From contig NZ_CP038033.1 in the NCBI RefSeq assembly GCF_004421105.1, forward strand, positions 3,181,659-3,245,658: a stretch of DNA of 64,000 bases, in the 5' to 3' direction. The notes beneath the pieces were generated by a model, which saw nothing but the letters and a program-made list of their open reading frames with translations, searched no databases and had not been told where the DNA came from. Below, piece by piece: positions 14,144 through 59,597 of this stretch (its first letter is position 1; the number at the start of each line of letters is the position of its first letter). The position numbers and the translations under genes are program-made. The stretch comes from Nitrosococcus wardiae. GTDB lineage: Bacteria > Pseudomonadota > Gammaproteobacteria > Nitrosococcales > Nitrosococcaceae.

Positions 14144-14845
14144 ATGAAAAAATCAATCCAAATCCTTAATACATCAATTCAATGCTATTTCTCAGCAACT
14201 ATGCTAGGTTACAGCGTAGTGATTATAGGGGGCATAGGGCTTTTTATCGCCCTTGCACAACAAGTCCATCAGCATGGAGAGCTCTGGTTTGATACAGCGA
14301 TCCTCACTTTACTTTCTGAACACCGCACACTGGTACTAGATGAATTTTTTCTCTGGATAACTTGGGCGGGCTCAAAATTTTTTCTTCTACCCCTTAGCAT
14401 GGCCATTATTGGTATTCTGATTTACCGCCGCCATTATCCGGAAGCCATCCTTATGGGCATTGGTTTTGGCGGGGCCAGCCTTATAAACCTGGCCCTAAAA
14501 GTCTTAATAGTCCGGGAGCGACCGCTCTTATTTCTGCCTCTAGAAGAGTACGGTGGATTCGCCTTTCCTAGTGGGCATACCGCCCAGATTACCGCCTTTG
14601 CCCTTTCCGCCTTCCTTATCATTCACCGACTTCATCCTCGCTGGCAATGGCCAACAGCTATACTCTTAATCATACTTGTCCTATGTGTATCCACTTCAAG
14701 GCTCTACCTACAAGTCCATTATCCTTCCGATATCCTGGGAGGGTTCTTAGTCGCCTTAGTATGGATTTTCAGTATTGATGCGCTCATCCACATAATCAAC
14801 CAATCGGAACATTATCCTACAGAAAAAGAGGGGAATAACACATGA
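14144..14845 (+). CDS. PAP2-family membrane phosphatase
   Basis: This 233-residue multi-pass inner-membrane protein carries the three PAP2 motifs: K...RERP, PSGHT and SRLYLQVHYPSD. The family dephosphorylates lipid phosphates such as phosphatidate, phosphatidylglycerol phosphate or undecaprenyl diphosphate. It overlaps the transaldolase-transketolase gene by 4 bases (ATGA), so the two are translationally coupled. No biochemical reason for that pairing is clear. Exact substrate unknown. Confidence 0.88.
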   Translation: MKKSIQILNTSIQCYFSATMLGYSVVIIGGIGLFIALAQQVHQHGELWFDTAILTLLSEHRTLVLDEFFLWITWAGSKFFLLPLSMAIIGILIYRRHYPEAILMGIGFGGASLINLALKVLIVRERPLLFLPLEEYGGFAFPSGHTAQITAFALSAFLIIHRLHPRWQWPTAILLIILVLCVSTSRLYLQVHYPSDILGGFLVALVWIFSIDALIHIINQSEHYPTEKEGNNT

Positions 14846-17787
14846 ATCCACTTTTAAGGTTGCTCAAATTTGGACAAGGTTACTGGATTGATAATCTCAC
14901 CCGGCATATGATAATAAGTGGAAATTTAAAGCGCCGTGTTGATAAACAAGGTTTACGTGGCGTCACTTCCAACCCTAAGATTTTCCATGAAGCCATTGCT
15001 AAAAGTGATGATTACGATGCCCAAATTGAAACCCTGATCGCAGAAGATCGCTCCAATATCGAGATTTATGAAGCGCTTGTTACCACCGATATTCGAGATG
15101 CCTGCGATATTCTTCGCCCGCTTTACGACGAACTAAAAGGCCAAGACGGATTCGTCAGCCTTGAAGTCTCTCCCCATCTCGCCCATGACACTCAAGGGTC
15201 CCTCCAGGAAGCGCGACGGTTATGGCAAATTGTGGATCGGCCTAATTTGCTCATCAAAATTCCCGCTACCACCGCTGGTATTCCGGCGATTGAAGAATTG
15301 TTATTCGAAGGGATCAATATCAATATCACCCTCCTGTTTTCCATCGAACGCTACCAAGCCGTGGCCCAGGCCTATCTCAAAGCACTGGAGCGACGCCTGG
15401 AAGCAGGAAAGCCAGTGGCTCATATTGCCTCTGTGGCTAGCTTCTTCCTGAGCCGGATTGATGTGTTAGTAGACCAACTCCTAAGCCATCGCATTCCTCT
15501 ACCAGGACGATCTCATTTAGAGCCCCATCCGGAGGACTTGCAAGGTAAGGTGGCCATTGCCAATGCCAAGCTGGCCTACCAGCATTTTAAGCAAATTCTC
15601 CAAAGTGATTGCTGGCAAGCCTTGGAGGCTAAGGGAGCCCAAATGCAGCGAATGCTCTGGGCCAGTACCAACACCAAAAATCCCGCCTACCGGGACGTTA
15701 TGTATATTGAGCCTTTGATTGGCCCCCACACCATTAATACCATGCCGGAAGACACCATTGAGGCCTTTGCCGACCATGGTAGGGTTAAAGAAACAGTCGA
15801 GGAAAATATAGAAGAAGCTCAAAAAATCATTACTGAGCTGGAGAAAATAGGGATTGATTTTCACTTCGTCGCGTCACAACTAGAAAATGAAGGCATCCAA
15901 AAATTTATCGAACCCTACGATGCGCTCTTAGAAGCATTGGGTACCAAGTGCCAACAACGCAGAAACCGCCAACAGGTGAAACCCCTACAAGAAGTAGCTC
16001 AACAACTCCGCCGCCTCGTTATCCAGATGACTACCGATGCCGGATCAGGCCATCCTACCTCTTGCCTCTCCTGTGCAGAGATTGTCGCTGCCTTGTTTTT
16101 CCATGAAATGCACTGGGATCCCAGGGCCCCCAAAGCTCGTAATGTGGATACCTTTATCCTTTCTAAAGGCCATGCCGCACCGATTCTTTGGGCGGCCCTA
16201 TGGGAAGCCAAAGCCATTGACGAAGATCCCCTCTCTCTTCGTAAGCTGGATAGTACTCTGGAAGGCCACCCTACCCCGAATAACCCCTGGATTAAGGTAG
16301 CCACCGGATCCCTAGGTCAGGGTCTAGCTGCGGCAAACGGAATCGCCTTAGCCAACCGTTTAGATAACATCCATGCCCGGGTCTATTGCCTGCTTGGGGA
16401 TGGAGAATGCTCAGAAGGATCCGTTTGGGAAGCTGCCCAATTTGCTTCCTTGAACAAGCTCTCTGATTTGGTGGCTATTGTGGATGTCAACGCCCTAGCT
16501 CAAAGCGGTCCTGCGCCCTACCAGCACGATACCCCTGTGTTTGCCCATCGTTTTCAATCCTTTGGCTGGGAAACCATAGAAATTGATGGTCATGATCTAG
16601 CGGCCATCCTCAACGCCTTTGAGCAAGCTAAAAAAACAGGGCCAACTGCCATTATTGCAAAGACTGAGAAAGGCAAAGGCGTTTCTTTCCTGGAAGGTAA
16701 AGATGGTTGGCATGGCAAAGCCTTGGACCCAGCAAGCATGGAAAAGGCCCTGGCAGAACTAGGAGAAAATCAAGCTAACGTGATAGTGGAACCTCGACGT
16801 ATAGGAACCTACATCCCCCCTCAAAGAAAACCAGCACCTGCGCTCTCCATTGGCTATTCTATAGGAGATGAAATCGCCACAAGGGATGCCTTTGGCAAGG
16901 CGCTGAAAAAACTAGGAGACTTTCTTCCCGAGCTTGTGGTCTTAGATGGCGATGTCAAAAATTCTACCCGAACCGAATATTTTTCCGAAGAATATCCCAA
17001 TCGATTTTTCGAAAGCTATATTGCCGAACAGAATATGGTAGGCACCGCCCTCGGGCTAGCAGTTTGTGGCAAAATCTCCTGCGCCGCCAGCTTCGCTTGT
17101 TTTCTGACCCGGGCCTACGATTTTATCCGGATGGCTGGTCATAGCCGACCGCCACATCTCATTTTTTGTGGCAGCCATGCCGGCGTTTCCATTGGCGAGG
17201 ACGGTCCCTCCCAGATGGGATTGGAAGATCTAGCCATGTTTCGAGCTGTCTCTGGCAGCACGGTTCTGTACCCCTGTGATGGTGTCAGCGCTGAGCGTTT
17301 GACCGCACAGGCAACACAAACCCAAGGAATTGTTTACATTCGCACAACCCGTCCCAAAACCCCTGTAATCTATACCACTGATGAAAAATTTCCCATCGGA
17401 GGAAGCAAAATCTTACGTACTTCAAAAGAGGACAAGTTTACCCTTGTAACAGCAGGTATTACCGTACATGAAGCACTTGCCGCTTACGATAGGCTTAAAC
17501 AAAAGGGGATCTCTACTCGAATCATTGACAGCTATTCGGTAAAACCACTCGATGTAGAAACGCTGTCCAAAGCGGCTCATGAGACCCAAGCACTATTTGT
17601 CATCGAAGATCATTGGATCGAGGGAGGCCTCGGCGATGCCGTGGCAGCCGCCGTCAATTCCCCAACGCCAGTATACCGTCTCGCAATTACAGAAGAACCC
17701 CGTTCTGGAAAATCAGAAGAACTATTAGAACGATATGGGATTTCTCAAAAAGCTATCACCCAGAAAATCCTGGAATTTATGGGTTAA
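14842..17787 (+). CDS. Transaldolase-transketolase fusion protein
   Basis: This 981-residue protein joins two non-oxidative pentose-phosphate enzymes. Residues 1 to about 370 are a transaldolase with VTSNPKIFHE and the Schiff-base Lys139 in NLLIKIPATT. From about 378 a full transketolase follows, with SGHPTSC, the thiamine-diphosphate motif beginning GDGECSEGSVWEAA and the pyrimidine-domain segment with AEQNMVG. Normally these are separate proteins; fusion would pass sedoheptulose-7-phosphate, erythrose-4-phosphate and glyceraldehyde-3-phosphate between sites and fix a 1:1 ratio. Its start overlaps the PAP2 gene's stop. Both active sites look complete. Confidence 0.93.
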   Translation: MNPLLRLLKFGQGYWIDNLTRHMIISGNLKRRVDKQGLRGVTSNPKIFHEAIAKSDDYDAQIETLIAEDRSNIEIYEALVTTDIRDACDILRPLYDELKGQDGFVSLEVSPHLAHDTQGSLQEARRLWQIVDRPNLLIKIPATTAGIPAIEELLFEGININITLLFSIERYQAVAQAYLKALERRLEAGKPVAHIASVASFFLSRIDVLVDQLLSHRIPLPGRSHLEPHPEDLQGKVAIANAKLAYQHFKQILQSDCWQALEAKGAQMQRMLWASTNTKNPAYRDVMYIEPLIGPHTINTMPEDTIEAFADHGRVKETVEENIEEAQKIITELEKIGIDFHFVASQLENEGIQKFIEPYDALLEALGTKCQQRRNRQQVKPLQEVAQQLRRLVIQMTTDAGSGHPTSCLSCAEIVAALFFHEMHWDPRAPKARNVDTFILSKGHAAPILWAALWEAKAIDEDPLSLRKLDSTLEGHPTPNNPWIKVATGSLGQGLAAANGIALANRLDNIHARVYCLLGDGECSEGSVWEAAQFASLNKLSDLVAIVDVNALAQSGPAPYQHDTPVFAHRFQSFGWETIEIDGHDLAAILNAFEQAKKTGPTAIIAKTEKGKGVSFLEGKDGWHGKALDPASMEKALAELGENQANVIVEPRRIGTYIPPQRKPAPALSIGYSIGDEIATRDAFGKALKKLGDFLPELVVLDGDVKNSTRTEYFSEEYPNRFFESYIAEQNMVGTALGLAVCGKISCAASFACFLTRAYDFIRMAGHSRPPHLIFCGSHAGVSIGEDGPSQMGLEDLAMFRAVSGSTVLYPCDGVSAERLTAQATQTQGIVYIRTTRPKTPVIYTTDEKFPIGGSKILRTSKEDKFTLVTAGITVHEALAAYDRLKQKGISTRIIDSYSVKPLDVETLSKAAHETQALFVIEDHWIEGGLGDAVAAAVNSPTPVYRLAITEEPRSGKSEELLERYGISQKAITQKILEFMG

Positions 17788-19969: not shown

Positions 19970-20027
19970 GCCCGCGGATCAATCCTTATTTCCTTATTTT
20001 TTGGCATTTGCTGACTTACTAAAAGCC

Positions 20028-22703
20028 ATGAGTATTCGCAATCTTGAGCACTTGTTTCAACCCCAGTCAGTAGCGGTAATTGGTGCATCCACTAAACCCC
20101 ATAGTGTGGGCGGTACCGTGATGCGCAATCTCTTAGAAGGGGGGTTTGGTGGCCCGATTATGCCTGTCAATCCCAAATACAGAGCCGTGGCTGGAGTCTT
20201 GGCCTACCCGAATATCGCCAGTTTACCAGAGACCCCAGATCTAGCTATCATCGGTACCCCACCTACCACCGTACCAGGTCTCATCACCGAATTGGGCGAG
20301 CGTGGAACTAAGGCGGCCATTGTACTTACTGCGGGTCTGCCCCAGACCAAAGATAAGCAGGGACAAAACCTCCAGCAAAAAATGTTGGAAGCTGCCCGGC
20401 CTCACCTTTTGCGTATTCTAGGCCCTAACTGCGTAGGTCTCATGATTCCTTTACTGGGGTTCAATGGCAGTTTTGCCCATACTCAGGCTAGGAAAGGCGA
20501 AATCGCCTTTGTTTCCCAATCAGGGGCCCTCACCACAGTGGTCCTTGATTGGGCCAAATCGAAAGATATTGGCTTTTCCTATTTTATTTCCATGGGAGAT
20601 AGTGCGGATATTGATTTCGGGGATGTACTGGACTACCTGGGAGGTGAGCCCAATACGCGCGCGATTCTCCTCTATATCGAATCCATTAAAGAGGCCCGAA
20701 AATTTATGTCTGCGGCCCGGGCAGCGGCACGCAACAAACCGGTACTGGTGGTCAAATCTGGCCGCGCTCCAGAGGGGGCCCAGGCCGCAGCTTCCCATAC
20801 CGGTGCCCTGGCCGGTTCCGATGATGTCTATAGTGCTGCCATTCGTCGCGCAGGCATGCTGCGTGTCGTCACCATTGAAAATCTGTTTGGTGCGGTAGAA
20901 ACCTTAGCCCGGGCCTTACCCATGCAAGGCAATCGGCTAACCATCCTGACCAATGGGGGCGGTCCCGGCGTCATGGCTACCGATGCGGTAATTTTGGCTG
21001 ATGGCCAACTCGCCACCCTCTCCAAGAAAACCATCCAGCAATTGGACCAGGTGCTCCCTCCCACCTGGTCCCATGGCAACCCGGTTGATATTATCGGGGA
21101 TGCCCCAGCCGAACGCTATGTGAAGGCCTTAAAGATTTTGCTCAACGATCCCCAATCTGATGCGCTTTTGCTTATTCATGCCCCTACCGCTATCGTCCCC
21201 AGTGACCATATTGCAGAAGCCATCGTGACTGTCGTGAAAGAAGCTAAGCGCAATGTACTCACCTGCTGGCTAGGTGGCGAGGCGGTTGAAAAAGCCCGGG
21301 ATATTTTTGCGAGGGCAAATATTCCTACTTATGGAACGCCTGAAGAAGCAGTTCATGCTTTTCTGAATATGGTGGAATACCATCGCAATCAAGTGCAATT
21401 AATGGAAACGCCCCCTTCAATCTCTCAGGAATTCACTCCCGACCGGAAGGCAGCACAGCAGGTTATAAAAAAGGTCCTCGCTTCCTCTCACCGTCTATTA
21501 AGCGAACCCCAGGCTAAAGAGATTTTGGCGACCTACGGCATTCCAGTCGTCGCCACCCGAGTGGCAAAAACCCCTGAAGAAGCTCAACGGATGGCCCAAG
21601 AACTGGGTTTTCCAGTAGCGCTAAAAATTCTCTCGCCAGATATTTCCCATAAATCAGACGTCGGAGGCGTTGTCTTAGATTTAGAAACTCCTGAAGCTGT
21701 CCAGGCGGAAGCTGAAAGGATACTTCGCCGCCTTCAAGAATTGCGCCCTGAGGCCCAGTTGGAGGGTTTCACAGTACAAGAAATGGCCCACCGTCCTGGC
21801 GCCCATGAACTTTTGATTGGTGCGACCACAGACCCCATTTTTGGTCCAATTATTTTATTTGGCCAAGGAGGCACTGCCGTTGAGATCATTCAAGACCGAG
21901 CTGTCGCATTGCCTCCCCTCAATATGCACCTGGCACAAGAACTGATCTCCCGGACCCGCGTTGCCAAACTACTTGCAGGTTATCGAGATCGCCCCGCTGT
22001 CGATCAGGAGGCCATTGCACGGGTTCTCATCCAGATCGCAGAGCTAATAGCTGATATTCCAGAAATCACTGAACTCGATATCAATCCGCTCCTCGCTGAT
22101 GATAAGGGAGTCTTGGCCTTGGATGCGCGTATGGGAATAGCACCCGCTAAGAGCTCGGGACCCGAACGGCTTGCTATTCGTCCTTATCCTAGAGAGCTTG
22201 AAGAATGGAGCGATTTTCAAAGAGAAAAGGTACTACTACGTCCCATTCGCCCTGAAGATGAACCCCAGTACCGGGAATTTCTCCAGCAGCTGGACCCCCA
22301 AGACATCCGCTTTCGTTTTTTTGACATGATCAAAGAATGGCCCCATTCTGAACTGGCCCGCTATACCCAGATCGACTATGACCGAGAAATGGCTTTTCTA
22401 GCTATCCCCAAAAATGTAGATGATTGGCCAAAAATTCTAGGGGTCGCCCGAGCAATCACCGATCCCCTTAACATCCAAGCAGAATTTGCAATCATTGTGC
22501 ACTCGGCACTTAAAGGCAAAGGGCTAGGCCATCTTTTGCTAGATAAGATGATCCAGTACTACCAATCCTGTGGTACTAAGGAGCTGATCGGCAATGCACG
22601 CCGCACCAATCAGCGGATGTTGGCCCTAGCAAAAGACCTAGGTTTTGAAATCCAGCCCATCGAAGAGGAGATCGTCCAAGTGCGGCTAAATTTACAATCA
22701 TAG
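20028..22703 (+). CDS. Acyl-CoA synthetase (NDP-forming)-like/GNAT acetyltransferase, Pat-like
   Basis: This 891-residue protein has domains in the order CoA-binding Rossmann (1-135), succinyl-CoA-ligase-like (about 140-300, with SHTGALAGSD), an ATP-grasp region (about 480-700) and a C-terminal GNAT domain (about 725-890). This is the layout of the protein acetyltransferase Pat/YfiQ (PatZ), which uses acetyl-CoA to acetylate lysines, for example in acetyl-CoA synthetase, and so couples enzyme activity to carbon status. The N-terminal part often acts as a sensor rather than an enzyme in that family. I chose the ATG at 20028 over an upstream TTG. It sits among glycolytic genes. Confidence 0.88.
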   Translation: MSIRNLEHLFQPQSVAVIGASTKPHSVGGTVMRNLLEGGFGGPIMPVNPKYRAVAGVLAYPNIASLPETPDLAIIGTPPTTVPGLITELGERGTKAAIVLTAGLPQTKDKQGQNLQQKMLEAARPHLLRILGPNCVGLMIPLLGFNGSFAHTQARKGEIAFVSQSGALTTVVLDWAKSKDIGFSYFISMGDSADIDFGDVLDYLGGEPNTRAILLYIESIKEARKFMSAARAAARNKPVLVVKSGRAPEGAQAAASHTGALAGSDDVYSAAIRRAGMLRVVTIENLFGAVETLARALPMQGNRLTILTNGGGPGVMATDAVILADGQLATLSKKTIQQLDQVLPPTWSHGNPVDIIGDAPAERYVKALKILLNDPQSDALLLIHAPTAIVPSDHIAEAIVTVVKEAKRNVLTCWLGGEAVEKARDIFARANIPTYGTPEEAVHAFLNMVEYHRNQVQLMETPPSISQEFTPDRKAAQQVIKKVLASSHRLLSEPQAKEILATYGIPVVATRVAKTPEEAQRMAQELGFPVALKILSPDISHKSDVGGVVLDLETPEAVQAEAERILRRLQELRPEAQLEGFTVQEMAHRPGAHELLIGATTDPIFGPIILFGQGGTAVEIIQDRAVALPPLNMHLAQELISRTRVAKLLAGYRDRPAVDQEAIARVLIQIAELIADIPEITELDINPLLADDKGVLALDARMGIAPAKSSGPERLAIRPYPRELEEWSDFQREKVLLRPIRPEDEPQYREFLQQLDPQDIRFRFFDMIKEWPHSELARYTQIDYDREMAFLAIPKNVDDWPKILGVARAITDPLNIQAEFAIIVHSALKGKGLGHLLLDKMIQYYQSCGTKELIGNARRTNQRMLALAKDLGFEIQPIEEEIVQVRLNLQS

Positions 22704-38307: not shown

Positions 38308-39942
38308 ATGATGCGTGATCTGTGGTATAAGGACGCCATCGTGTACTGTCTCGATGTGGACACGTACATGGATGCTAATGGCGATGGTATCGGCGATTTC
38401 AAAGGGTTAGCACAACGGGTAGACCATATTGCTGGCCTTGGCGCTACCTGTTTGTGGCTGCTGCCTTTCTACCCTTCGCCTAACCGGGATGATGGGTATG
38501 ATGTGAAGGACTACTACGCCGTAGATCCCCGTCTAGGGACGCTCGGAGATTTTGTGGAGTTCATTCACTACGCCCATGAGCGGGGCTTAAGGGTGATTAT
38601 TGACCTTGTGGTCAATCATACTTCCGACCAACACCCCTGGTTTCAGGCAGCCCGCAAGGATAAGGATTCCCCCTATCGCGATTATTATGTCTGGTCAGAG
38701 ACGAAGCCAGCGGATGCAGAGGAAGGAGTAGTATTTCCGGGTAGGCAAGAGGCAATCTGGACCTACGATGAAGAAGCTGAGGCCTATTACTTCCACCGCT
38801 TCTATAAACATCAGCCCGATCTAAATATTGCTAACCCTGCTGTGCGGGAAGAAATACGCAAGATAATGGGTTTTTGGCTGCAGCTAGGGATCTCCGGTTT
38901 CCGAGTTGACGCAGCACCCTTTTTGATTGAATTGAAGGGAATCCAGAATGCGACGGTTAAGGATCCATACAATTATTTGCGGGAGTTTCGGGAATTCCTC
39001 CAATGGCGTCGAGGGGATGCCATTCTCTTAGCAGAGGCAAATGTGGCCATGGACAAAGTTCCCAGCTATTTTGGCGATGGCACTAAATTGCATATGCTAT
39101 TTAATTTTCTCCTTAACCAGTATCTATTTCTTGCACTTACACGCAAGCAGGCGGCGCCCCTTATAGAAGGATTGCATAAACTACCCCCGCTCCCTCACAC
39201 CGGTCAATGGGCGAACTTCCTGCGTAATCACGACGAATTAAATCTAGGTAGGCTTAGCAAAGCCCAACGGGAAGAGATTTTTCAGGCGTTAGCCCCGGAA
39301 AAGCGAATGCAGATTTATGGACGGGGAATTCGCCGCCGGTTGCCACCCATGTTTGATGGGGATCAAAAGCGGATCAGGCTTGCCTATAGTTTAATGTTTT
39401 CACTTCCAGGAACACCGGTGCTACGCTATGGAGAGGAAATTGGAATGGGCGATGATCTCTCCCTCAGCGACCGCAACAGTGTGCGCACGCCCATGCAATG
39501 GTCTAATGAGAAAAACGGTGGGTTCTCATCTGCACCAGAGGAAAATCTGATTCGCCCCGTGATCAAAAATAGCCAGTATGGCTATGAGCAGCTCAACATG
39601 ATAAGGCAAGAATATGATCCCGATTCGCTGCTCAATTGGATAGAGCGATTAATGCATACTCGTAAGGAAAATCCTGAATTCGGTTTTGGCCACTGTCGTA
39701 TTGCCAAGACGGGTGATCCCGCTGTCTTTGCCCATACCTGCGAATGGGAAGAAGGCATTGTATTGGCTGTCCACAACCTCTCCGATCAACCCCGAACGGT
39801 CACCCTTGATCTAAGCGATTATAAGGCTAATCAGTTGCTCGATATTTTAGGCGATCATAAATATAGTTCGATTACCAATGGTGCTCCGCGGATCGAACTC
39901 CAAGGTTATGGCTTTCGCTGGTTCCAGCTTAAAAACAAATAA
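38308..39942 (+). CDS. GH13 alpha-amylase family enzyme, trehalose-synthase-like
   Basis: This 544-residue glycoside hydrolase has a (beta/alpha)8 fold. The Ca2+ site DANGDGIGDF, VIIDLVVNHTS, the nucleophile region GFRVDAAPF, the general acid in LLAEANVAM and the FLRNHDEL motif give the catalytic set. The closest pattern is trehalose synthase (maltose to trehalose isomerase, GH13_16), but the fused maltokinase of many TreS proteins is absent. Trehalose or maltose turnover would fit an osmotic-stress theme with opgGH. The start may be either ATG of the ATGATG pair. It has no signal peptide, so it acts in the cytosol. Confidence 0.85.
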   Translation: MMRDLWYKDAIVYCLDVDTYMDANGDGIGDFKGLAQRVDHIAGLGATCLWLLPFYPSPNRDDGYDVKDYYAVDPRLGTLGDFVEFIHYAHERGLRVIIDLVVNHTSDQHPWFQAARKDKDSPYRDYYVWSETKPADAEEGVVFPGRQEAIWTYDEEAEAYYFHRFYKHQPDLNIANPAVREEIRKIMGFWLQLGISGFRVDAAPFLIELKGIQNATVKDPYNYLREFREFLQWRRGDAILLAEANVAMDKVPSYFGDGTKLHMLFNFLLNQYLFLALTRKQAAPLIEGLHKLPPLPHTGQWANFLRNHDELNLGRLSKAQREEIFQALAPEKRMQIYGRGIRRRLPPMFDGDQKRIRLAYSLMFSLPGTPVLRYGEEIGMGDDLSLSDRNSVRTPMQWSNEKNGGFSSAPEENLIRPVIKNSQYGYEQLNMIRQEYDPDSLLNWIERLMHTRKENPEFGFGHCRIAKTGDPAVFAHTCEWEEGIVLAVHNLSDQPRTVTLDLSDYKANQLLDILGDHKYSSITNGAPRIELQGYGFRWFQLKNK

Positions 39943-52195: not shown

Positions 52196-53182
52196 ATGAC
52201 CTTTTCATCCAAAGTCGTTGTAATCACTGGGGCTTCCGCAGGCGTAGGGCGGGCAACAACACTGGCATTCGCCAAAGTCGGGGCATCTATTGGGTTGCTT
52301 GCACGGGGACGCAAAGGATTAGAAGACACCTCTCAGGAGGTAGAGGCCTTAGGGGGAAAAGCGTTAATCCTCGAAACCGATGTTGCTGATCCTGGGCAAG
52401 TGGAAGCAGCAGCAGCAGCAGTTGAAGAGGCGTTCGGACCCATTGATATTTGGGTTAATAATGCCATGACCGCGGTGTTCTCTCCCGTCAAAGACATGAC
52501 ACCCGAGGAGTTTCGACGGGTCACCGAAGTCACTTACTTAGGCTATGTCAATGGGACCCTGGCCGCGCTCAAACGTATGTTACCCCGCAATCGAGGAGTC
52601 ATTATTCAAGTGGGTTCGGCATTAGCCTATCGGGCCGTTCCTTTGCAGGCTTCTTATTGTGCTGCCAAGTATGCCATCCGGGGCTTTACCGACTCATTAC
52701 GGTGTGAATTGCTTCATGAAAAATCCCAGGTCCGAGTCACCATGGTGCAAATGCCCGCGTTCAATACACCCCAATTTGATTGGGTTAAATCCCATTTATC
52801 ACGTAAAGCGCAGCCTATGCCGCCCGTCTATCAGCCAGAAGTTGCGGCCCAGGCCATTTTATGGGCAGCCAAGCATCACCGGCGTGAACTCAAAGTGGGA
52901 CTGCCCACTTTTTTAATTATTGCTATTAATAAAATTGCACCCACCCTGCTTGATCATTATCTGGCACGTACTGGATATCAATCACAACAGAGAGAAGAGC
53001 CTGAAGATCCTAACCGCCCCTATAATCTATGGGATCCGGTACCTGGCGATTATGGTACTCACGGTAGTTTTGATGCGAAAGCCCATCGCTTCAGCATTCA
53101 CCTCTGGGCAACTACCCACCGAAGCTGGCTTACACTCGCGGCTGGATTGTTTTTAGCATATTTCCTTTTAAATCTTTTATAA
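52196..53182 (+). CDS. Short-chain dehydrogenase/reductase with C-terminal membrane anchor
   Basis: This 328-residue SDR has the cofactor motif TGASAGVGRATT (about 11-22), NNAMT and the catalytic SALAYRAVPLQASYCAAKYA (Ser-Tyr-Lys). After the catalytic domain (about 250 residues) a ~60-residue extension ends with a hydrophobic helix (SWLTLAAGLFLAYFLLNLL), which suggests membrane anchoring. Substrate unknown. It starts a run of same-strand genes ending at 60034, but the 98-base gap to the next gene leaves operon membership open. Confidence 0.88.
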   Translation: MTFSSKVVVITGASAGVGRATTLAFAKVGASIGLLARGRKGLEDTSQEVEALGGKALILETDVADPGQVEAAAAAVEEAFGPIDIWVNNAMTAVFSPVKDMTPEEFRRVTEVTYLGYVNGTLAALKRMLPRNRGVIIQVGSALAYRAVPLQASYCAAKYAIRGFTDSLRCELLHEKSQVRVTMVQMPAFNTPQFDWVKSHLSRKAQPMPPVYQPEVAAQAILWAAKHHRRELKVGLPTFLIIAINKIAPTLLDHYLARTGYQSQQREEPEDPNRPYNLWDPVPGDYGTHGSFDAKAHRFSIHLWATTHRSWLTLAAGLFLAYFLLNLL

Positions 53183-53280: not shown

Positions 53281-55077
53281 ATGAGTCAAACCGTCAGCGA
53301 TTTTCTACTACAGCGATTAAGCGATTGGGGCATTAAGCGAATCTATGGTTATCCTGGCGATGGCATTAACGGGATCGTCGGTGCCTTGGATCGCGCTCAA
53401 GACCGAATCGAGTTTATTCAGACTCGTCACGAGGAGATGGCGGCTTTCATGGCCTGCGCCCACGCCAAATTCACCGGTGAAGTGGGGATTTGTTTGGCCA
53501 CTTCAGGGCCCGGGGCTATTCACCTGTTGAACGGGCTTTATGACGCCAAATTAGACCACCAGCCGGTGGTGGCCATCGTGGGCCAACAGTCCCGTGCCGC
53601 CTTAGGAGGAGATTACCAGCAGGAAGTGGATTTGATCTCTTTGTTTAAGGATGTCGCCCATGAATACGTGCATATGTGTTCCTCTCCCGCGCAGGTCCGG
53701 CATTTGATTGATCGGGCTGTCCGCATTGCCAAGACCGAGCGCACCGTCACCTGCGTCATCTTTCCCAACGACGTGCAAGAGCTGGATGCAGTCGAAAAAC
53801 CCCCTCGGGCCCATGGCACCATCCATTCCGGTATCGGTTATACGCTCCCCCAGGTGATTCCCCATCAACAAGATTTACAGCGGGCCGCCGAGGTGCTTAA
53901 TACAGGCAACAAGGTGGCCATCCTAGTGGGTGCCGGCGCCCTAGGGGCTACAGATGAAGTCATTAAAGTCGCTGATCTACTAGGCGCAGGGGTGGCAAAG
54001 GCCTTATTAGGCAAAGCAGCCCTGCCCGATGATCTCCCCTTCGTGACCGGCGCAATCGGTCTTCTAGGCACCAAACCCAGTTGGGAGTTGATGGATGACT
54101 GCGACACTTTTTTGATGATTGGTTCTGGCTTCCCCTACTCCGAATTTCTCCCAGAGGAAGGCCAGGCCCGCGGAGTGCAAATCGACATCGACGGGCGCAT
54201 GTTAAGTCTCCGCTATCCTATGGAGGTAAACTTAGTAGGAGATAGCGCCGAAACTTTACGGGCCCTGATCCCGCTCCTTCATTCCAAGACGAACCGCGCT
54301 TGGCGCGAGAAGATCGAAAAAGACGTGGCGGAGTGGTGGCAAGTATTAGAAGGCCGGGCCATGCACGATGCTAACCCTATTAACCCCCAGCGGGTCTTTT
54401 GGGAACTCTCACCACGGTTACCCGAAAACTGTATCATCACCAGCGATTCAGGTTCAGCCGCCAATTGGTACGCCCGGGACCTTAAAATCCGTCGAGGTAT
54501 GATGTGTTCTCTTTCTGGTGGGCTAGCCACTATGGGGCCTGGCGTTCCCTATGCCATCTCCGCAAAATTCGCTTTTCCAGATCGAACGGTGATCGCCACC
54601 GTCGGCGACGGGGCCATGCAGATGAACGGCAACAGCGAACTGGTCACCGCGGCGAAATACTGGAAACAGTGGAGCAATCCCCGCCTGATTGTCCTCGTGC
54701 TCAATAACCGGGATCTCAACCAGGTGACTTGGGAGCAGCGGGTGATCTCCGGCGATCCTAAATTCGAAGGCACTCAAAACATTCCCGACTTTCCCTATGC
54801 CCGCTATGCCGAGTTGTTAGGCTTTAAAGGTATTCGCGTAGACCAGCCGGAAAACATTGGCCCCGCTTGGGAAGAAGCCTTAGCCGCTGATCGACCCGTC
54901 ATACTAGAAGCCTACACTGATGGGAACGTGCCGCCTCTGCCGCCCCATATCAAGCTGCAACAGGCCAAGGCTTATGCCTCCGCCCTGCTGCATAGAGACC
55001 CAGAAGCCATCAACATCATTAAGCAATCCATTAAGGAAATTAAAGCCAACTGGCTTCCTCCTAGCCAGGAAAAATAA
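53281..55077 (+). CDS. Thiamine-diphosphate-dependent enzyme (pyruvate oxidase/acetolactate synthase-like)
   Basis: This 598-residue enzyme has the three-domain POX/ALS layout: an N-terminal pyrimidine domain with the catalytic Glu in TRHEEMAAFMA, a central Rossmann-like domain, and a C-terminal ThDP domain with VGDGAMQMNGN and LVLNNRDLN. Which 2-oxo acid it decarboxylates is unknown; the family also includes sugar-acid-linked and acetaldehyde-forming enzymes. AAGGGAGG lies 9 bases before the ATG at 53281; a TTG three codons earlier is less likely. The next gene starts 12 bases on. Confidence 0.88.
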   Translation: MSQTVSDFLLQRLSDWGIKRIYGYPGDGINGIVGALDRAQDRIEFIQTRHEEMAAFMACAHAKFTGEVGICLATSGPGAIHLLNGLYDAKLDHQPVVAIVGQQSRAALGGDYQQEVDLISLFKDVAHEYVHMCSSPAQVRHLIDRAVRIAKTERTVTCVIFPNDVQELDAVEKPPRAHGTIHSGIGYTLPQVIPHQQDLQRAAEVLNTGNKVAILVGAGALGATDEVIKVADLLGAGVAKALLGKAALPDDLPFVTGAIGLLGTKPSWELMDDCDTFLMIGSGFPYSEFLPEEGQARGVQIDIDGRMLSLRYPMEVNLVGDSAETLRALIPLLHSKTNRAWREKIEKDVAEWWQVLEGRAMHDANPINPQRVFWELSPRLPENCIITSDSGSAANWYARDLKIRRGMMCSLSGGLATMGPGVPYAISAKFAFPDRTVIATVGDGAMQMNGNSELVTAAKYWKQWSNPRLIVLVLNNRDLNQVTWEQRVISGDPKFEGTQNIPDFPYARYAELLGFKGIRVDQPENIGPAWEEALAADRPVILEAYTDGNVPPLPPHIKLQQAKAYASALLHRDPEAINIIKQSIKEIKANWLPPSQEK

Positions 55078-55089
55078 GGACGGTGAGTA

Positions 55090-56193
55090 ATGGTGGCCCG
55101 GTATATAGAGGCTCCTGTCGAAAAGCTGGAAGTCTCAGTATACACTGTTCCTACCGACTTCCCTGAAGCGGATGGCACTTTAAGCTGGGACTCAACCACG
55201 CTCATCTTGGTCAAGATCCATGGCGGCGGCAAGCAAGGCCTTGGTTATTCCTACGGAAATAAGGCCGCAGCAGTTTTGATTGATAGCAAATTTGCCGCAA
55301 CCATCACCGGCCAGGATGCCATGGCCATTGCCGGTAGGTGGCAAGCCATGGTGAAAGCAATTCGCAATCAAGGCCGCCCAGGCCTTAGCTCCATGGCCAT
55401 GGCCGCCGTGGATAATGCCCTGTGGGATCTCAAAGCTCGCCTTCTCGATCTGCCCCTAGTCACTCTGCTAGGTGCGGTGCGAGAAGGGGCGCCTATTTAT
55501 GGTAGCGGAGGATTTACCAGCTATTCTCCCCAGCAGCTTCAGAAACAACTGAGCGGCTGGGCGAACGAAGGGATTCAAGCCGTCAAAATGAAGGTGGGAA
55601 GCTGCCCAGAGAAAGATCCGGAGCGGGTACAGCTTGCCCGCGAGGCCATTGGCGAAGAAGTGGCCCTGTTTGTGGACGGCAACGGCGCCTATGACCGTAA
55701 GCAGGCGTTAGCCTTGGCGGAGTCCTTTGCCAAATGTGGCGTGACTTGGTTTGAAGAACCGGTCTCATCGGATGATCTGGACGGCCTTCGGTTGCTCCGC
55801 GATCGGGGCCCCGCCGGAATGGATATCGCCGCCGGGGAATACGGCTATGACCAATATTATTTCCGCCATCTGCTGGAGGCCGGTGCTGTGGACGTGCTAC
55901 AAGCGGACGCCACCCGCTGCGCCGGCATCACCGGATTTATGCGGGCCGGGGCCCTTTGTGAGGCCTATGGGATTCCCCTTTCAGCCCATACTGCCCCTTC
56001 CCTCCACGCCCATCCTGTCTGTGCACTCCCCCATATCCGGCCCTTGGAGTATTTCCACGACCACGCCCGTATTGAAGCCATGTTCTTTGATGGTTTTCTG
56101 AGTCCTGTAAACGGCATCCTCAAACCCGACCTTTCCCGCCCTGGGTTAGGCTTGGAGCTACGAGAGGCGGATGCTGCTCGCTACGCCGTTTAA
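55090..56193 (+). CDS. Enolase-superfamily sugar-acid dehydratase/racemase-like protein
   Basis: This 367-residue member of the mandelate racemase subgroup has a capping domain at 1-120 and then a barrel. The KxK motif is in AVKMKVGS; metal ligands follow in FVDGNGAYD, WFEEPVSSDD and AAGEYGYD; the His base is in LSAHTAPSLH. Enzymes of this kind abstract a proton next to a carboxylate; most related ones dehydrate acid sugars to 2-keto-3-deoxy acids. The exact substrate is unknown. It lies 12 bases after the ThDP enzyme gene and 28 before the oxidoreductase gene. Confidence 0.88.
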   Translation: MVARYIEAPVEKLEVSVYTVPTDFPEADGTLSWDSTTLILVKIHGGGKQGLGYSYGNKAAAVLIDSKFAATITGQDAMAIAGRWQAMVKAIRNQGRPGLSSMAMAAVDNALWDLKARLLDLPLVTLLGAVREGAPIYGSGGFTSYSPQQLQKQLSGWANEGIQAVKMKVGSCPEKDPERVQLAREAIGEEVALFVDGNGAYDRKQALALAESFAKCGVTWFEEPVSSDDLDGLRLLRDRGPAGMDIAAGEYGYDQYYFRHLLEAGAVDVLQADATRCAGITGFMRAGALCEAYGIPLSAHTAPSLHAHPVCALPHIRPLEYFHDHARIEAMFFDGFLSPVNGILKPDLSRPGLGLELREADAARYAV

Positions 56194-56221
56194 TCATGTT
56201 AAAGAGGAAAGAGAGAGTAAG

Positions 56222-59167
56222 ATGGCTCCCCGAACGCATCCCTTCCCGCAGGCAGCCGCGGAAGCCCTAGCCAACGATTTACGCCAGCGAATCCAAGGCG
56301 AAGTGCGGTTTGATAATGGCAGCCGCGCTTTATACGCCACCGACGGTTCCAACTATCGCCAGGTCCCCATCGGCGTCGTCCTCCCTCAACATAAGCAAGA
56401 TATCCTGGAAACGGTGGCTGTCTGTCGCCAACACCAAGCCCCCGTGCTCGCTCGAGGAGGCGGGACGAGCCTGGCCGGACAGTGCTGCAACACGGCGGTG
56501 ATCATGGATATGTCCAAATATCTGCGGCGGATTCTGGAAATCGATCCTGAGCACCGACGGGCAGTGGTAGAGCCCGGCTGCGTATTGGACGACTTGCGCG
56601 ATCATGCCGAAAAACATCACCTTACCTTCGGCCCGGATCCGGCCACCCACGACCATAACACTTTAGGGGGCATGATCGGTAACAATTCCTGCGGCATTCA
56701 CTCGGTAATGGCGGGGCGCACTGCCGATAATATCAATGCGCTGGAAATTCTCACCTATGACGGCCTGCGCCTGTGGGTCGGCCCCACTTCGGAAGAGGAA
56801 CTGGAGCAGATTATTCGCCAAGGAGGCCGCCGGGGCGAAATTTATGCCGGCTTAAAAGCCATTCGAGATAAGTACGCGGACCTGATCCGGGAACGCTATC
56901 CCCAGATCCCACGGCGGGTCTCCGGCTACAATTTGGACGAACTGCTTCCTGAGAAGGGCTTTAATGTGGCCAGAGCCGTAGTGGGCACCGAAGGCACCTG
57001 CGTGACCGTGCTTCAGGCCGATCTACGCCTTGTCCCCAGTCCTCCCCATCGGACTTTGGTGGTGCTCGGCTATCCTGACGTTTACACTGCCGGGGAGCAT
57101 GTCCCCCAGATACTTGAGTACGCTCCCGTAGGACTGGAGGGCATTGATGATGTGCTGCTCAAGTACATGAAGGAAAAGCATATGCGCCCCAAAGGCCGAT
57201 CGCTGCTGCCGGAGGGGCGCGGCTGGTTACTGGTAGAGTTCGGTGGTGAAACGAGGGCAGAATCAGAGCAGAACGCCCAAAGCCTGCTGCAGGCCCTTAA
57301 ACAATCTGCTAATCCGCCCCATATAAAACTCTTTGATGACCCTGAAGAAGCGGAGCGCATTTGGGAAATTCGGGAGTCAGGCCTTGGAGCCACAGCCCAT
57401 TTACCCGGCCAAAGTGATGCCTGGCCGGGCTGGGAGGATGCTGCTGTCCCTCCTAAGAAGGTGGGGACTTATCTTCGGGACTTTCGGCAGCTGCTAGAGC
57501 GCTATGATTACGGTTGCTCCCTCTATGGTCATTTTGGAGATGGCTGTATTCATGTCCGAATTGATTTCGATCTTACCTCTGAGGGAGGGATCGAAAAATA
57601 CCAAGCCTTTACCAATGATGCCGCAGATTTGGTCATAGGCTATGGCGGTTCCCTGTCGGGAGAACATGGAGACGGCCAATCCCGTGCCGACCTGCTCGGG
57701 AAAATGTATGGCGAGGAATTACTTCAAGCCTTCCGGGAGTTCAAAACACTTTGGGATCCGCTCAACCGTATGAACCCCGGCAAAGTCGTTGATCCTTATC
57801 CCCGGGATTCCAATCTGCGCCTAGGCACCGATTTTCGCGCGCCCCAGCTAGAGACCGTTTTTGCTTATCCCAAGGATAACGGCAGCTTTACCGGCGCCTC
57901 TTTACGCTGTGTGGGCGTAGGCAAATGCCGCCATATTAATAAGGGCGTAATGTGTCCAAGCTATATGGCCACAAAAGAAGAAATGCATTCCACGCGCGGC
58001 CGGGCCCGCCTGCTCTATGAAATGATCTACGGCATGACCCATGAGAATGCGCCGCTTAAAGAAGGCTGGAAGAGTGAAGCGGTCTACGAGGCCCTGGATC
58101 TGTGCTTAGCTTGCAAGGGGTGCCTCAGTGACTGCCCGGTAGATGTGGATATGGCAACCTACAAAGCCGAGTTTAATTACCATTATTTTAAGGGTCGATT
58201 GCGGCCGCGGGTGGCTTATTCCATGGGCGGGATTTATTGGTGGAGTCGGTTAGCCTCGCGGGCGCCCCGGGCGGTTAATTTCTTCACCCAAACTCCCGTT
58301 TTCTCAAACCTGGCTAAATTTACTGCCGGTATTGCCCAAGAAAGACGGTTACCCCGCTTTGCCCCCCAAACCTTCAAGCAGTGGTATCAACAGCGCAACC
58401 CCCGCCCTCCCAAGGGTCATAAGGTCTTACTGTGGCCGGATACGTTTAACAACCACCTGCACCCGGAGATCCTGGTGGCCGCCGTGGAAGTGCTGGAAGC
58501 CGCCGGATTCCAAGTTATCGTACCCACCTCTTCCCTGTGTTGTGCCCGCCCTCTCTACGCTTGGGGCATGTTGAATAGGGCCAAGAAGCTGCTCACTCAA
58601 ATAATGGAAACGCTGACCCCAGAAGTGCTCCAAGGGACTCCTGTCGTTGGCCTGGAACCGTCCTGTGTCGCCGCTTTTAGAGATGAACTCATCAAGCTAT
58701 TTCCCAAAGATGACCGGGCCCAGCGCCTCAGCCAGCAGACCTTTATGTTGGGCGAGTTTCTGGCCCAGCAAGAAAACTATGAACCTCCACTGCTCCACCG
58801 TAAGGCGGTGGTCCATGCCCATTGCAACCATCATGCAGTTATCGGTTTGGAAGGGGAAAAGCAGATTTTTGAGCAGATGGGGCTTAATTACAATTTGCTA
58901 GATTCTGGCTGCTGCGGCATGGCCGGCCCGTTCGGATTTGAGGCTGACCATTACCCGGTGTCTCTTAAAATCGGGGAGCGGATTCTCCTGCCCACCGTGC
59001 GCGCAGCCGAAAAGGATACTTTGATCCTCACCGATGGCTATGCCTGTCGTGAACAAATCGCCCAAACCACCGACCGCTATGCCCTGCATTTATCCCAGAT
59101 CTTACTTATGGCCCTGCGCGAGGGCTATAATGGAACAGGAGGCGATTATCCTGAACGGCAATGGTAA
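56222..59167 (+). CDS. FAD-binding and iron-sulfur oxidoreductase fusion (GlcD/GlcF type)
   Basis: This 981-residue enzyme contains a PCMH-type FAD domain (about 40-220, with ARGGGTSLAGQCCN), an FAD-oxidase C-terminal domain (to about 540, with HFGDGCIHVRIDF and GEHGDGQ), a ferredoxin-like region with a variant cluster (CVGVGKCR...) and CLACKGCLSDCP, and two CCG-type domains with SLCCARPLY and SGCCGMAG. This fused layout is found in YdiJ-type D-2-hydroxyacid dehydrogenases that pass electrons to the respiratory chain. The ATG at 56222 is used; an earlier in-frame start overlaps the enolase-type gene. It would oxidise a 2-hydroxy acid made or used by its neighbours. Confidence 0.9.
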   Translation: MAPRTHPFPQAAAEALANDLRQRIQGEVRFDNGSRALYATDGSNYRQVPIGVVLPQHKQDILETVAVCRQHQAPVLARGGGTSLAGQCCNTAVIMDMSKYLRRILEIDPEHRRAVVEPGCVLDDLRDHAEKHHLTFGPDPATHDHNTLGGMIGNNSCGIHSVMAGRTADNINALEILTYDGLRLWVGPTSEEELEQIIRQGGRRGEIYAGLKAIRDKYADLIRERYPQIPRRVSGYNLDELLPEKGFNVARAVVGTEGTCVTVLQADLRLVPSPPHRTLVVLGYPDVYTAGEHVPQILEYAPVGLEGIDDVLLKYMKEKHMRPKGRSLLPEGRGWLLVEFGGETRAESEQNAQSLLQALKQSANPPHIKLFDDPEEAERIWEIRESGLGATAHLPGQSDAWPGWEDAAVPPKKVGTYLRDFRQLLERYDYGCSLYGHFGDGCIHVRIDFDLTSEGGIEKYQAFTNDAADLVIGYGGSLSGEHGDGQSRADLLGKMYGEELLQAFREFKTLWDPLNRMNPGKVVDPYPRDSNLRLGTDFRAPQLETVFAYPKDNGSFTGASLRCVGVGKCRHINKGVMCPSYMATKEEMHSTRGRARLLYEMIYGMTHENAPLKEGWKSEAVYEALDLCLACKGCLSDCPVDVDMATYKAEFNYHYFKGRLRPRVAYSMGGIYWWSRLASRAPRAVNFFTQTPVFSNLAKFTAGIAQERRLPRFAPQTFKQWYQQRNPRPPKGHKVLLWPDTFNNHLHPEILVAAVEVLEAAGFQVIVPTSSLCCARPLYAWGMLNRAKKLLTQIMETLTPEVLQGTPVVGLEPSCVAAFRDELIKLFPKDDRAQRLSQQTFMLGEFLAQQENYEPPLLHRKAVVHAHCNHHAVIGLEGEKQIFEQMGLNYNLLDSGCCGMAGPFGFEADHYPVSLKIGERILLPTVRAAEKDTLILTDGYACREQIAQTTDRYALHLSQILLMALREGYNGTGGDYPERQW

Positions 59168-59219
59168 CTGGAAATACCCCTACCCAACGCTTTAACCCCG
59201 TTACTGTAGGAGATAGATT

Positions 59220-59597
59220 ATGAGTACCCCCATCGGAAAAACCCTTTGGGCCATCGCCGAAGGTTATATTCCGCCCACCAGTACAGGACCGGCGCCCCAA
59301 ATGACCAGCCACGAAACAGCCTGCATCCTGAATACCACCAATCAGGAAGCCCAAATCGCCATCACCATCTACTTCAGCGATCGAGAACCTGCCGGCCCTT
59401 ACCAACTGACCGTCCCTGCCCAGCGCACCCGCCATGTTCGTTTTAATGAGCTCAAGGATCCCGAACCGATCCCCAAGGATACGGATTTCGCCAGTGTGAT
59501 TAAATCGAGCGTACCCATTGTCGTGCAACACACCCGATTGGATTCACGCCAGGCAGAATTGGCATTGTTATCGACACTTGCTTATGCAAGTGAATAA
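59220..59597 (+). CDS. ASRT-family protein (sensory rhodopsin transducer homologue)
   Basis: This 125-residue soluble beta-rich protein has GKTLWAIAEGYIPPTSTGP near the start, SHETACILN, ITIYFSDREPAGPYQLTVPA and a C-terminal VQHTRLDSRQAELALLSTLAY. The pattern is that of the Anabaena sensory rhodopsin transducer (ASRT) family, a homotetrameric small-molecule-binding fold predicted by comparative genomics to bind sugar-like ligands. No rhodopsin gene is in view. It sits 52 bases after the oxidoreductase gene, so a metabolic rather than light-sensing role is likely. Confidence 0.9.
   Translation: MSTPIGKTLWAIAEGYIPPTSTGPAPQMTSHETACILNTTNQEAQIAITIYFSDREPAGPYQLTVPAQRTRHVRFNELKDPEPIPKDTDFASVIKSSVPIVVQHTRLDSRQAELALLSTLAYASE

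Follow-up and report, generated by a model that had tools for sequence, protein, structure and literature searches.

What does ASRT, the protein known as the partner of Anabaena sensory rhodopsin, do when its gene stands at the end of a run of metabolic genes? The question is raised by a stretch of 64,000 nucleotides of Nitrosococcus wardiae (contig NZ_CP038033.1, positions 3,181,659 to 3,245,658), hereafter the window. Here, four genes on the same (+) strand encode a thiamine diphosphate (ThDP) enzyme, a mandelate-racemase-type enzyme, a flavin adenine dinucleotide (FAD)/Fe-S 2-hydroxyacid dehydrogenase and an ASRT protein. The four genes very probably form one mobile cassette that oxidises a sugar acid. 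We also propose, tentatively and with somewhat less than an even chance of being right, that ASRT serves this cassette by acting on the ring form of a sugar, and not as a light transducer. The genes are listed below, the last line giving an upstream gene that is a probable, non-constant member.

53281..55077, +, ThDP-dependent enzyme, pyruvate-oxidase-like (PRK08273; NF006129, 1102.3 bits versus a cut-off of 724)
55090..56193, +, enolase-superfamily enzyme of the mandelate-racemase subgroup, probable acid-sugar dehydratase (MR_MLE_N, MR_MLE_C)
56222..59167, +, FAD/4Fe-4S 2-hydroxyacid dehydrogenase, GlcD-GlcF/YdiJ-like fusion (FAD_binding_4, FAD-oxidase_C, Fer4_8, CCG)
59220..59597, +, ASRT-family protein, 125 aa, of the clade of the Anabaena protein (PF07100, 1.6e-56)
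52196..53182, +, SDR oxidoreductase, PRK07109-type (NF005495, 495.6 bits versus a cut-off of 264)

An initial annotation, made from the sequence alone, had called the ThDP, MR/MLE, FAD/Fe-S and ASRT genes and described their spacing as operon-like. Profile matches agree with all four calls, and the gaps between the genes are indeed 12, 28 and 52 bases. No terminator-like site was found in these three gaps, and purine-rich tracts resembling Shine-Dalgarno sequences lie upstream of the starts at 53281, 56222 and 59220.

The same annotation had proposed to check whether this gene order is conserved in other genomes, and for the ThDP, enolase-type and FAD/Fe-S neighbours of ASRT it proved to be. 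ASRT relatives were collected by scanning contigs with an alignment of three ASRT sequences; of the 255 relatives the best 80 were kept, hence with a bias to close relatives, and 56 further hand-picked stretches were added to these 80 named loci (L numbers; genomes are given G numbers). PF07100 genome searches matched 3 of 299 genomes in the window's own phylum; in the phylum to which a Rubrobacter genome belongs the figure was 59 of 396 (only part of them being solo ASRT), and in that of a Firmicutes genome 20 of 398. After filtering for score, length and absence of stops, which excluded L174, L199 and L200, 136 stretches and the window yielded 144 ASRT genes. L059 and L202 apparently hold the same gene, counted twice, and some loci end close to ASRT, so that neighbour counts may miss genes. 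Within 6 kb of ASRT on either strand, the ThDP family was found at 22 of the 144 genes, the enolase-type family at 19 and the FAD/Fe-S family at 11. ThDP and enolase-type genes occur together on the same strand within this distance at 14 ASRT genes, and all three partners are present at nine, the window being included in both counts. The ThDP matches in L045, L075, L087, L078 and L155 are only 42–48% identical, and that in L187 29%.

The 14 cassette loci span at least three phyla. They include Acidobacteria (L022, L030), five stretches of the Rubrobacter phylum and, in Pseudomonadota, loci from Modicisalibacter (L027), Sedimentitalea (L074), Telmatospirillum (L078), Geminicoccaceae (L082) and Pseudosulfitobacter (L086). 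ASRT is the first gene in nine (L022, L030, L074, L082, L086, L147, L148, L150, L151) and the last in five (the window, L027, L078, L153, L198), and the gap to its nearest partner is 10–120 bases in most of the 14. The case for conservation of the cassette rests on this tight same-strand spacing in distant genomes, a random-gene baseline being no part of the counts.

The three metabolic enzymes are compatible with oxidation of a sugar acid. The ThDP enzyme, which passes the PRK08273/NF006129 equivalog cut-off, carries the motifs RHEE at 49, GDG at 442 and NN at 475. Its best solved relative is 3ey9, pyruvate dehydrogenase [cytochrome] (7.4e-90), which we take to be the E. coli-type enzyme; PRK08273 proteins resemble pyruvate oxidases. 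Both MR/MLE superfamily domains (PF02746 and PF13378) are present in the enolase-type enzyme, with the motifs KMK, DGN, EEP, GEY, ADATR and SAH at 165, 194, 221, 247, 271 and 298. KxK and His-Asp motifs constitute the acid-base pair of MR/MLE enzymes, and MR-type enzymes with this pair dehydrate acid sugars. The closest solved relative is 3cyj, an MR/MLE-like structural-genomics protein (1.8e-135 over 357 residues), presumably from Rubrobacter xylanophilus, for which we know of no substrate assigned so far. The cut-off for L-talarate/galactarate dehydratase (NF047820) was missed (188.2 versus 500 bits). We dropped a substrate assignment for this enzyme because none of the 16 listed NCBIfam equivalog cut-offs was reached and the solved relatives are mixed. 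The FAD/Fe-S enzyme contains the cluster motif CLACKGCLSDCP and has D-lactate and glycolate dehydrogenases as best solved relatives; GlcD/GlcF-type fusions pass electrons from D-2-hydroxyacids to quinone. An identity with YdiJ (D-2-hydroxyglutarate dehydrogenase, NF049975) was rejected, the score being 525.9 bits for a cut-off of 1350.

In the pathway that we propose, the enolase-superfamily enzyme would form a 2-keto-3-deoxy acid by dehydration of an aldonate, a 2-keto acid would be decarboxylated or cleaved by the ThDP enzyme, and the FAD/Fe-S enzyme would transfer electrons from a D-2-hydroxyacid to the quinone pool. ASRT might act on the ring form of the pathway's sugar, either by exchanging anomers, as RhaM does for L-rhamnose, or by opening an aldonolactone ahead of the dehydratase step. 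For this it would use His31/Glu32 with Arg74, Gln103, Arg106 and Asp108.

The window ASRT matches PF07100 over the complete profile (1–119 of 119; 189.8 bits, cut-off 25) and does not match PF05336, the RhaM profile. It is 73% identical to Anabaena ASRT and 34% to TM1070, and carries the SHExxCxxN signature of the solo intracellular branch as S30-H31-E32-T-A-C35-I-L-N38. In the VIA comparison, a predicted monomer model (mean pLDDT 91.9) retrieved 1nc7 (Z 18.5) and 2ii8 (Z 17.0), the next entry being a GH32 protein at Z 6.8, followed by carbohydrate-binding modules. Foldseek gave 19 matches at E 0.001 or better, all of them chains of 2ii7, 2ii8, 2ii9, 2iia or 1nc7. We rejected fold relatives outside the ASRT family, since non-family matches peak at Z 6.8, the noise level.

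Residue conservation was followed in 64 aligned ASRT proteins, 28–74% identical to that of the window, with 41 rows in clade II and 19 in clade I of the family tree described below. N38 and R106 are kept in all rows of both clades. H31 and E32 are each present in 39/41 clade II and 19/19 clade I rows, R69 in 40/41 and 19/19, R74 in 41/41 and 16/19, Q103 in 41/41 and 17/19, and D108 in 41/41 and 18/19; C35 and H72 are each found in 40/41 and 13/19. The acid-base residues are thus constant across rhamnose, glucosidase and acid-sugar settings. One shared chemistry would account for this better than sensors that each recognise their own ligand, although a shared way of binding sugars would also be an explanation.

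ASRT genes occur in pairs at ten loci (L036, L044, L048, L053, L056, L060, L061, L072, L076, L083), where in most cases a sugar-lactone-oxidase (ALO) gene separates or flanks the two. In the four second copies inspected, E32 is replaced by D in all four, H31 by Q in two, C35 by A in three and H72 by K in three. Such changes might suit a non-catalytic partner subunit.

The nature of the ligand can be approached from the other families that surround ASRT. Within 6 kb on either strand, GH13 was found at 32 of the 144 genes, LLM oxidoreductases at 33, GH15 at 15, sugar-lactone oxidases at 22 and rhodopsin at 5. Glycosidase families are near ASRT in 55/144 cases, and LLM (F420-G6PDH-like) or sugar-lactone-oxidase families in 37/144. 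Rhamnose isomerase/kinase operons, glycosidases and aldose/lactone oxidoreductases near ASRT suggest that the ligand is the ring form of a sugar, rather than the acid-sugar intermediate.

Over the part covered by their contigs, eight rhamnose-type ASRT operons (L160-L165, L167, L186) contain a regulator (DeoR or LacI), ASRT, an FGGY kinase, an ABC transporter, RhaI and RhaEW; RhaI and RhaEW are often more than 6 kb from ASRT and these operons were read individually. In Rhizobium, the mutarotase RhaU is located directly upstream of the kinase (PMC3870299). We compared the distribution of ASRT with that of RhaM (PF05336) in one draw of 396 genomes, 45 of which have a RhaEW marker. ASRT lies inside the rhamnose operon in seven of the 45 (G320, G326, G350, G427, G504, G579, G662). 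RhaM was found nowhere in these seven genomes, versus 25 of the 38 other RhaEW genomes (Fisher p 0.0017). With over-cut-off RhaEW markers only, the figures are 0/6 and 23/32 (p 0.0018). The positions of RhaM and RhaEW were compared in 21 genomes and are no more than 15 kb apart in 20 of them, G340, where RhaM is far away, being the exception; in the remaining four of the 25 RhaM genomes the two genes are on different contigs. Two genomes with ASRT outside the rhamnose operon (G515, G679) have retained RhaM. The eighth rhamnose-operon ASRT belongs to a genome of another phylum (G874), which is without RhaM, like the other 19 ASRT-bearing genomes of its draw. The N. wardiae genome has no PF05336 match either.

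Thermotoga maritima matches PF07100 and not PF05336. Its rhamnose operon bears the name rhaMADBC in PMC3750489, which reports a 27- to 37-fold induction by rhamnose and does not contain the word mutarotase in its main text. TM1070 is presumably the gene called rhaM in this operon. ASRT would thus appear to stand in the place of RhaM in L-rhamnose operons, a suggestion drawn from few contrasts that does not amount to proof. In the literature searched, a single open-access library, we found no paper that calls ASRT a mutarotase.

As noted in the initial annotation, there is no rhodopsin gene at the locus, and two profile searches with PF01036 gave no match in the 4.02-Mb genome. The second of them covered 41 ASRT genomes, the present one included, and matched eight, which indicates that it is able to find rhodopsins. 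The matches fall in 6 of 13 cyanobacterial genomes and 2 of 28 others (G350, G679); no rhodopsin was matched in the remaining 7/13 and 26/28, some of which are drafts, and gaps may explain part of these absences. An ASRT genome with no rhodopsin match is therefore the usual case, cyanobacteria included. G350 and G679, both of the Rubrobacter phylum, combine an acid-cassette ASRT with a rhodopsin gene at a different place in the genome. In five cyanobacterial loci (L009, L010, L020, L055, L079), a rhodopsin gene is found on the strand of ASRT and no more than 6 kb away. The pair is thus not confined to Anabaena PCC 7120, to which the association was regarded as specific in PMC3198991.

In a tree of 130 ASRT rows and 125 columns, with many weak forks (56 of 127 inner branches open), the family splits in two with 99% SH-aLRT support, clade I having 32 rows and clade II 98. 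Clade I contexts are rhamnose-type operons, M24 peptidase with LacI, aldolase and GH42, and this clade includes TM1070. Clade II, in which the window and Anabaena proteins are located, covers the acid cassette, GH13/LLM/lactone-oxidase clusters and cyanobacteria. Six rhodopsin-linked rows, Anabaena included, lie inside clade II within one 12-row cyanobacterial group (97%), whose other six rows have no rhodopsin within 6 kb; the branch from which this group arises is weakly supported. What is new here, as judged from the tree, is that the rhodopsin-linked cyanobacterial ASRTs form one supported group in a clade otherwise surrounded by metabolic genes. Members of the ASRT family are as a rule encoded next to sugar enzymes, and seldom next to a light sensor. 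The simplest reading would be that a rhodopsin took on a metabolic protein, rather than metabolism a rhodopsin partner.

Several observations weigh against an action of ASRT on sugar rings. RhaM is also missing from 13 of the 38 other RhaEW genomes, 12 of which have neither gene, so that RhaM absence does not need ASRT. The RhaEW tree, which covers 30 of the 45 proteins and includes five of the seven genomes with ASRT in the operon, gives two supported independent contrasts (four in all); RhaM and ASRT occur together in none of them and no significance attaches to this number. G396, which has RhaM, and G418, which has neither gene, are near-identical in RhaEW, so that some absences may be assembly gaps, and the RhaEW match of G662 is a fragment on another contig. 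The RhaM test concerns clade I, and a ring-form role for the clade II protein of the window would hold by analogy. Known mutarotase or lactonase structures are absent among the 50 fold-search rows listed. The closest relative, L008 from a Nitrococcus metagenome-assembled genome (86%), has no cassette gene on its 3.2-kb contig, and for 44 of the 144 ASRT genes no member of the sugar families tested lies at a distance of up to 6 kb. Finally, binding to Anabaena sensory rhodopsin (ASR) and weak binding to DNA have been reported for Anabaena ASRT.

ASRT could alternatively be a non-catalytic tetrameric sugar sensor that tunes the enzymes or transporters of the operon via protein contact, as proposed by De Souza et al. 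(2009); the initial annotation favoured a form of this idea in which the ligand is an acid sugar. The cleft of 1NC7 contains ethanediol beside conserved His and Cys, the beta-sandwich resembles carbohydrate-binding modules (PMC2739507), and the association of ASRT with many different sugar operons suits a sensor. However, the pocket of a sensor is expected to vary with the sugar, yet H31, E32, R74, Q103, R106 and D108 are nearly invariant; rhamnose-type operons already have DeoR or LacI regulators, and the presence of ASRT in them coincides with loss of an enzyme gene, RhaM. A sensor is a serious if doubtful candidate, nearly as likely as an enzyme. The support for an enzyme-like role is no weaker than that for a sensor, and action on the ring form of a sugar is weakly favoured over pure sensing. 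ASRT might also accompany sugar-oxidation and stress islands in a passive or structural capacity, as a chaperone, a scaffold or a genomic hitch-hiker. This would account for the mixed gene context along the tree (52 changes on 130 rows), for the 44 genes without sugar families and for the stress-type genes in which the window is rich, such as PRC-barrel and DUF202. We consider this unlikely, since in unrelated phyla, and in both orders, ASRT is tightly spaced on the same strand with ThDP, enolase-type or FAD/Fe-S genes, and since its polar residues are strictly conserved. A DNA-binding transducer of light signals, as proposed in Anabaena and working here with another photoreceptor, agrees with the 73% identity of the two proteins. 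Of the DNA-contact residues R109, Q110 and N113 (numbering of PMC8660804), two are matched by R110 and Q111 of the window protein, the third being L114. Nevertheless, R110 is kept in only 2/19 clade I proteins, and PMC8660804 reports better looping of random DNA than of the promoter fragment, and a KD of ~10 uM. Most ASRT genomes searched are without a rhodopsin match, as described above, and since none was found in its own genome we rejected light or DNA signalling as the main role of the window ASRT; it is very improbable.

We return to ASRT as a protein acting on sugar rings. A broader proposal, which we regard as speculative and rather doubtful, is that the ASRT family consists of unrecognised small sugar-ring enzymes (mutarotases and/or lactonases) that take the place of RhaM in rhamnose operons, work in operons of glycosidases and aldose dehydrogenases, supply the acid cassette of the window, and were recruited late by rhodopsin in some cyanobacteria. 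Rhodopsin would then bind, and perhaps control, a metabolic enzyme. If ASRT, a 14-kDa protein, handles sugar rings, the textbook case of soluble rhodopsin signalling would become a link between light and sugar metabolism, the missing mutarotase gene would be explained in Thermotoga and several Actinomycetota, and uncharacterised 3cyj-type dehydratases could be placed in a pathway. Should ASRT be a sensor, the window would do no more than add another example of the neighbourhood described in 2009. The interest of the locus rests on the enzyme hypothesis for the family.

Both flanking genes had been suggested as further members of the cassette. For the SDR gene, which ends 98 bases before the ThDP gene, this holds only in part: its family is within 6 kb of 11/144 ASRT genes, five of them on the same strand, and the window's own copy is 37 bases beyond that limit. 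The DUF202 gene starts 29 bases 3' of ASRT. We rejected it as a member, since its family is within 6 kb of ASRT in only 1/144 cases, namely the window itself.

Other ASRT neighbourhoods and window genes were recorded in passing. In 19/144 cases, a trehalose-synthase-like GH13 and a TIGR03885 flavin mononucleotide-dependent LLM oxidoreductase lie on the same strand within 6 kb of ASRT, forming a second recurrent setting (L016, L036, L047, L049, L053, L054, L056, L060, L069, L071, L072, L076, L080 and L083). Clade I ASRT adjoins an M24-type peptidase gene in L168, L169, L171-L173, L175-L177 and L195, sometimes with LacI and a phosphotriesterase-family gene. At one locus (L149:7548-9334), a glucose-6-phosphate dehydrogenase reading frame abuts that of ASRT on the same strand. 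Some 19 kb upstream of its ASRT gene, the window encodes a GH13 protein (38308-39939) that clusters with the ASRT-linked GH13s; it also encodes a transaldolase-transketolase fusion (14842-17784) and an acyl-CoA synthetase of the ADP-forming type with a GNAT domain (20001-22700).

Among known systems, the L-rhamnose mutarotase RhaM/RhaU shares with ASRT its place in rhamnose operons and was not found where ASRT sits, whereas it belongs to a separate Pfam family (PF05336). The fold of RhaM is ferredoxin-like. TM1070 (1nc7), the Thermotoga ASRT homologue linked to rhamnose genes, has the fold of the window protein (Z 18.5) and the same H31/E32/R74/Q103/R106/D108 set, but is only 34% identical, falls in the other clade and belongs to a phosphorylating sugar pathway instead of an acid-oxidation cassette. 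The Anabaena ASR-ASRT pair (2ii7) is closer, with 73% identity, the same fold and a position in clade II; in contrast, the genome of the window has no detected rhodopsin and its ASRT has metabolic enzymes as partners. The closest parallel was described by De Souza, Iyer and Aravind in 2009 (PMC2739507), who reported ASRT with pyruvate decarboxylase/oxidase, sugar-acid dehydratase/racemase and glycolate-oxidase-like genes as a recurrent operon, one copy of which is in Rubrobacter xylanophilus, and proposed sugar sensing for ASRT. Both the cassette and the sensing idea are therefore already on record, and the N. wardiae locus, with the same four gene kinds, is a further instance. What is added here is only extent: another genome with the set intact, neighbour counts for 144 ASRT genes, and two orders of the genes.

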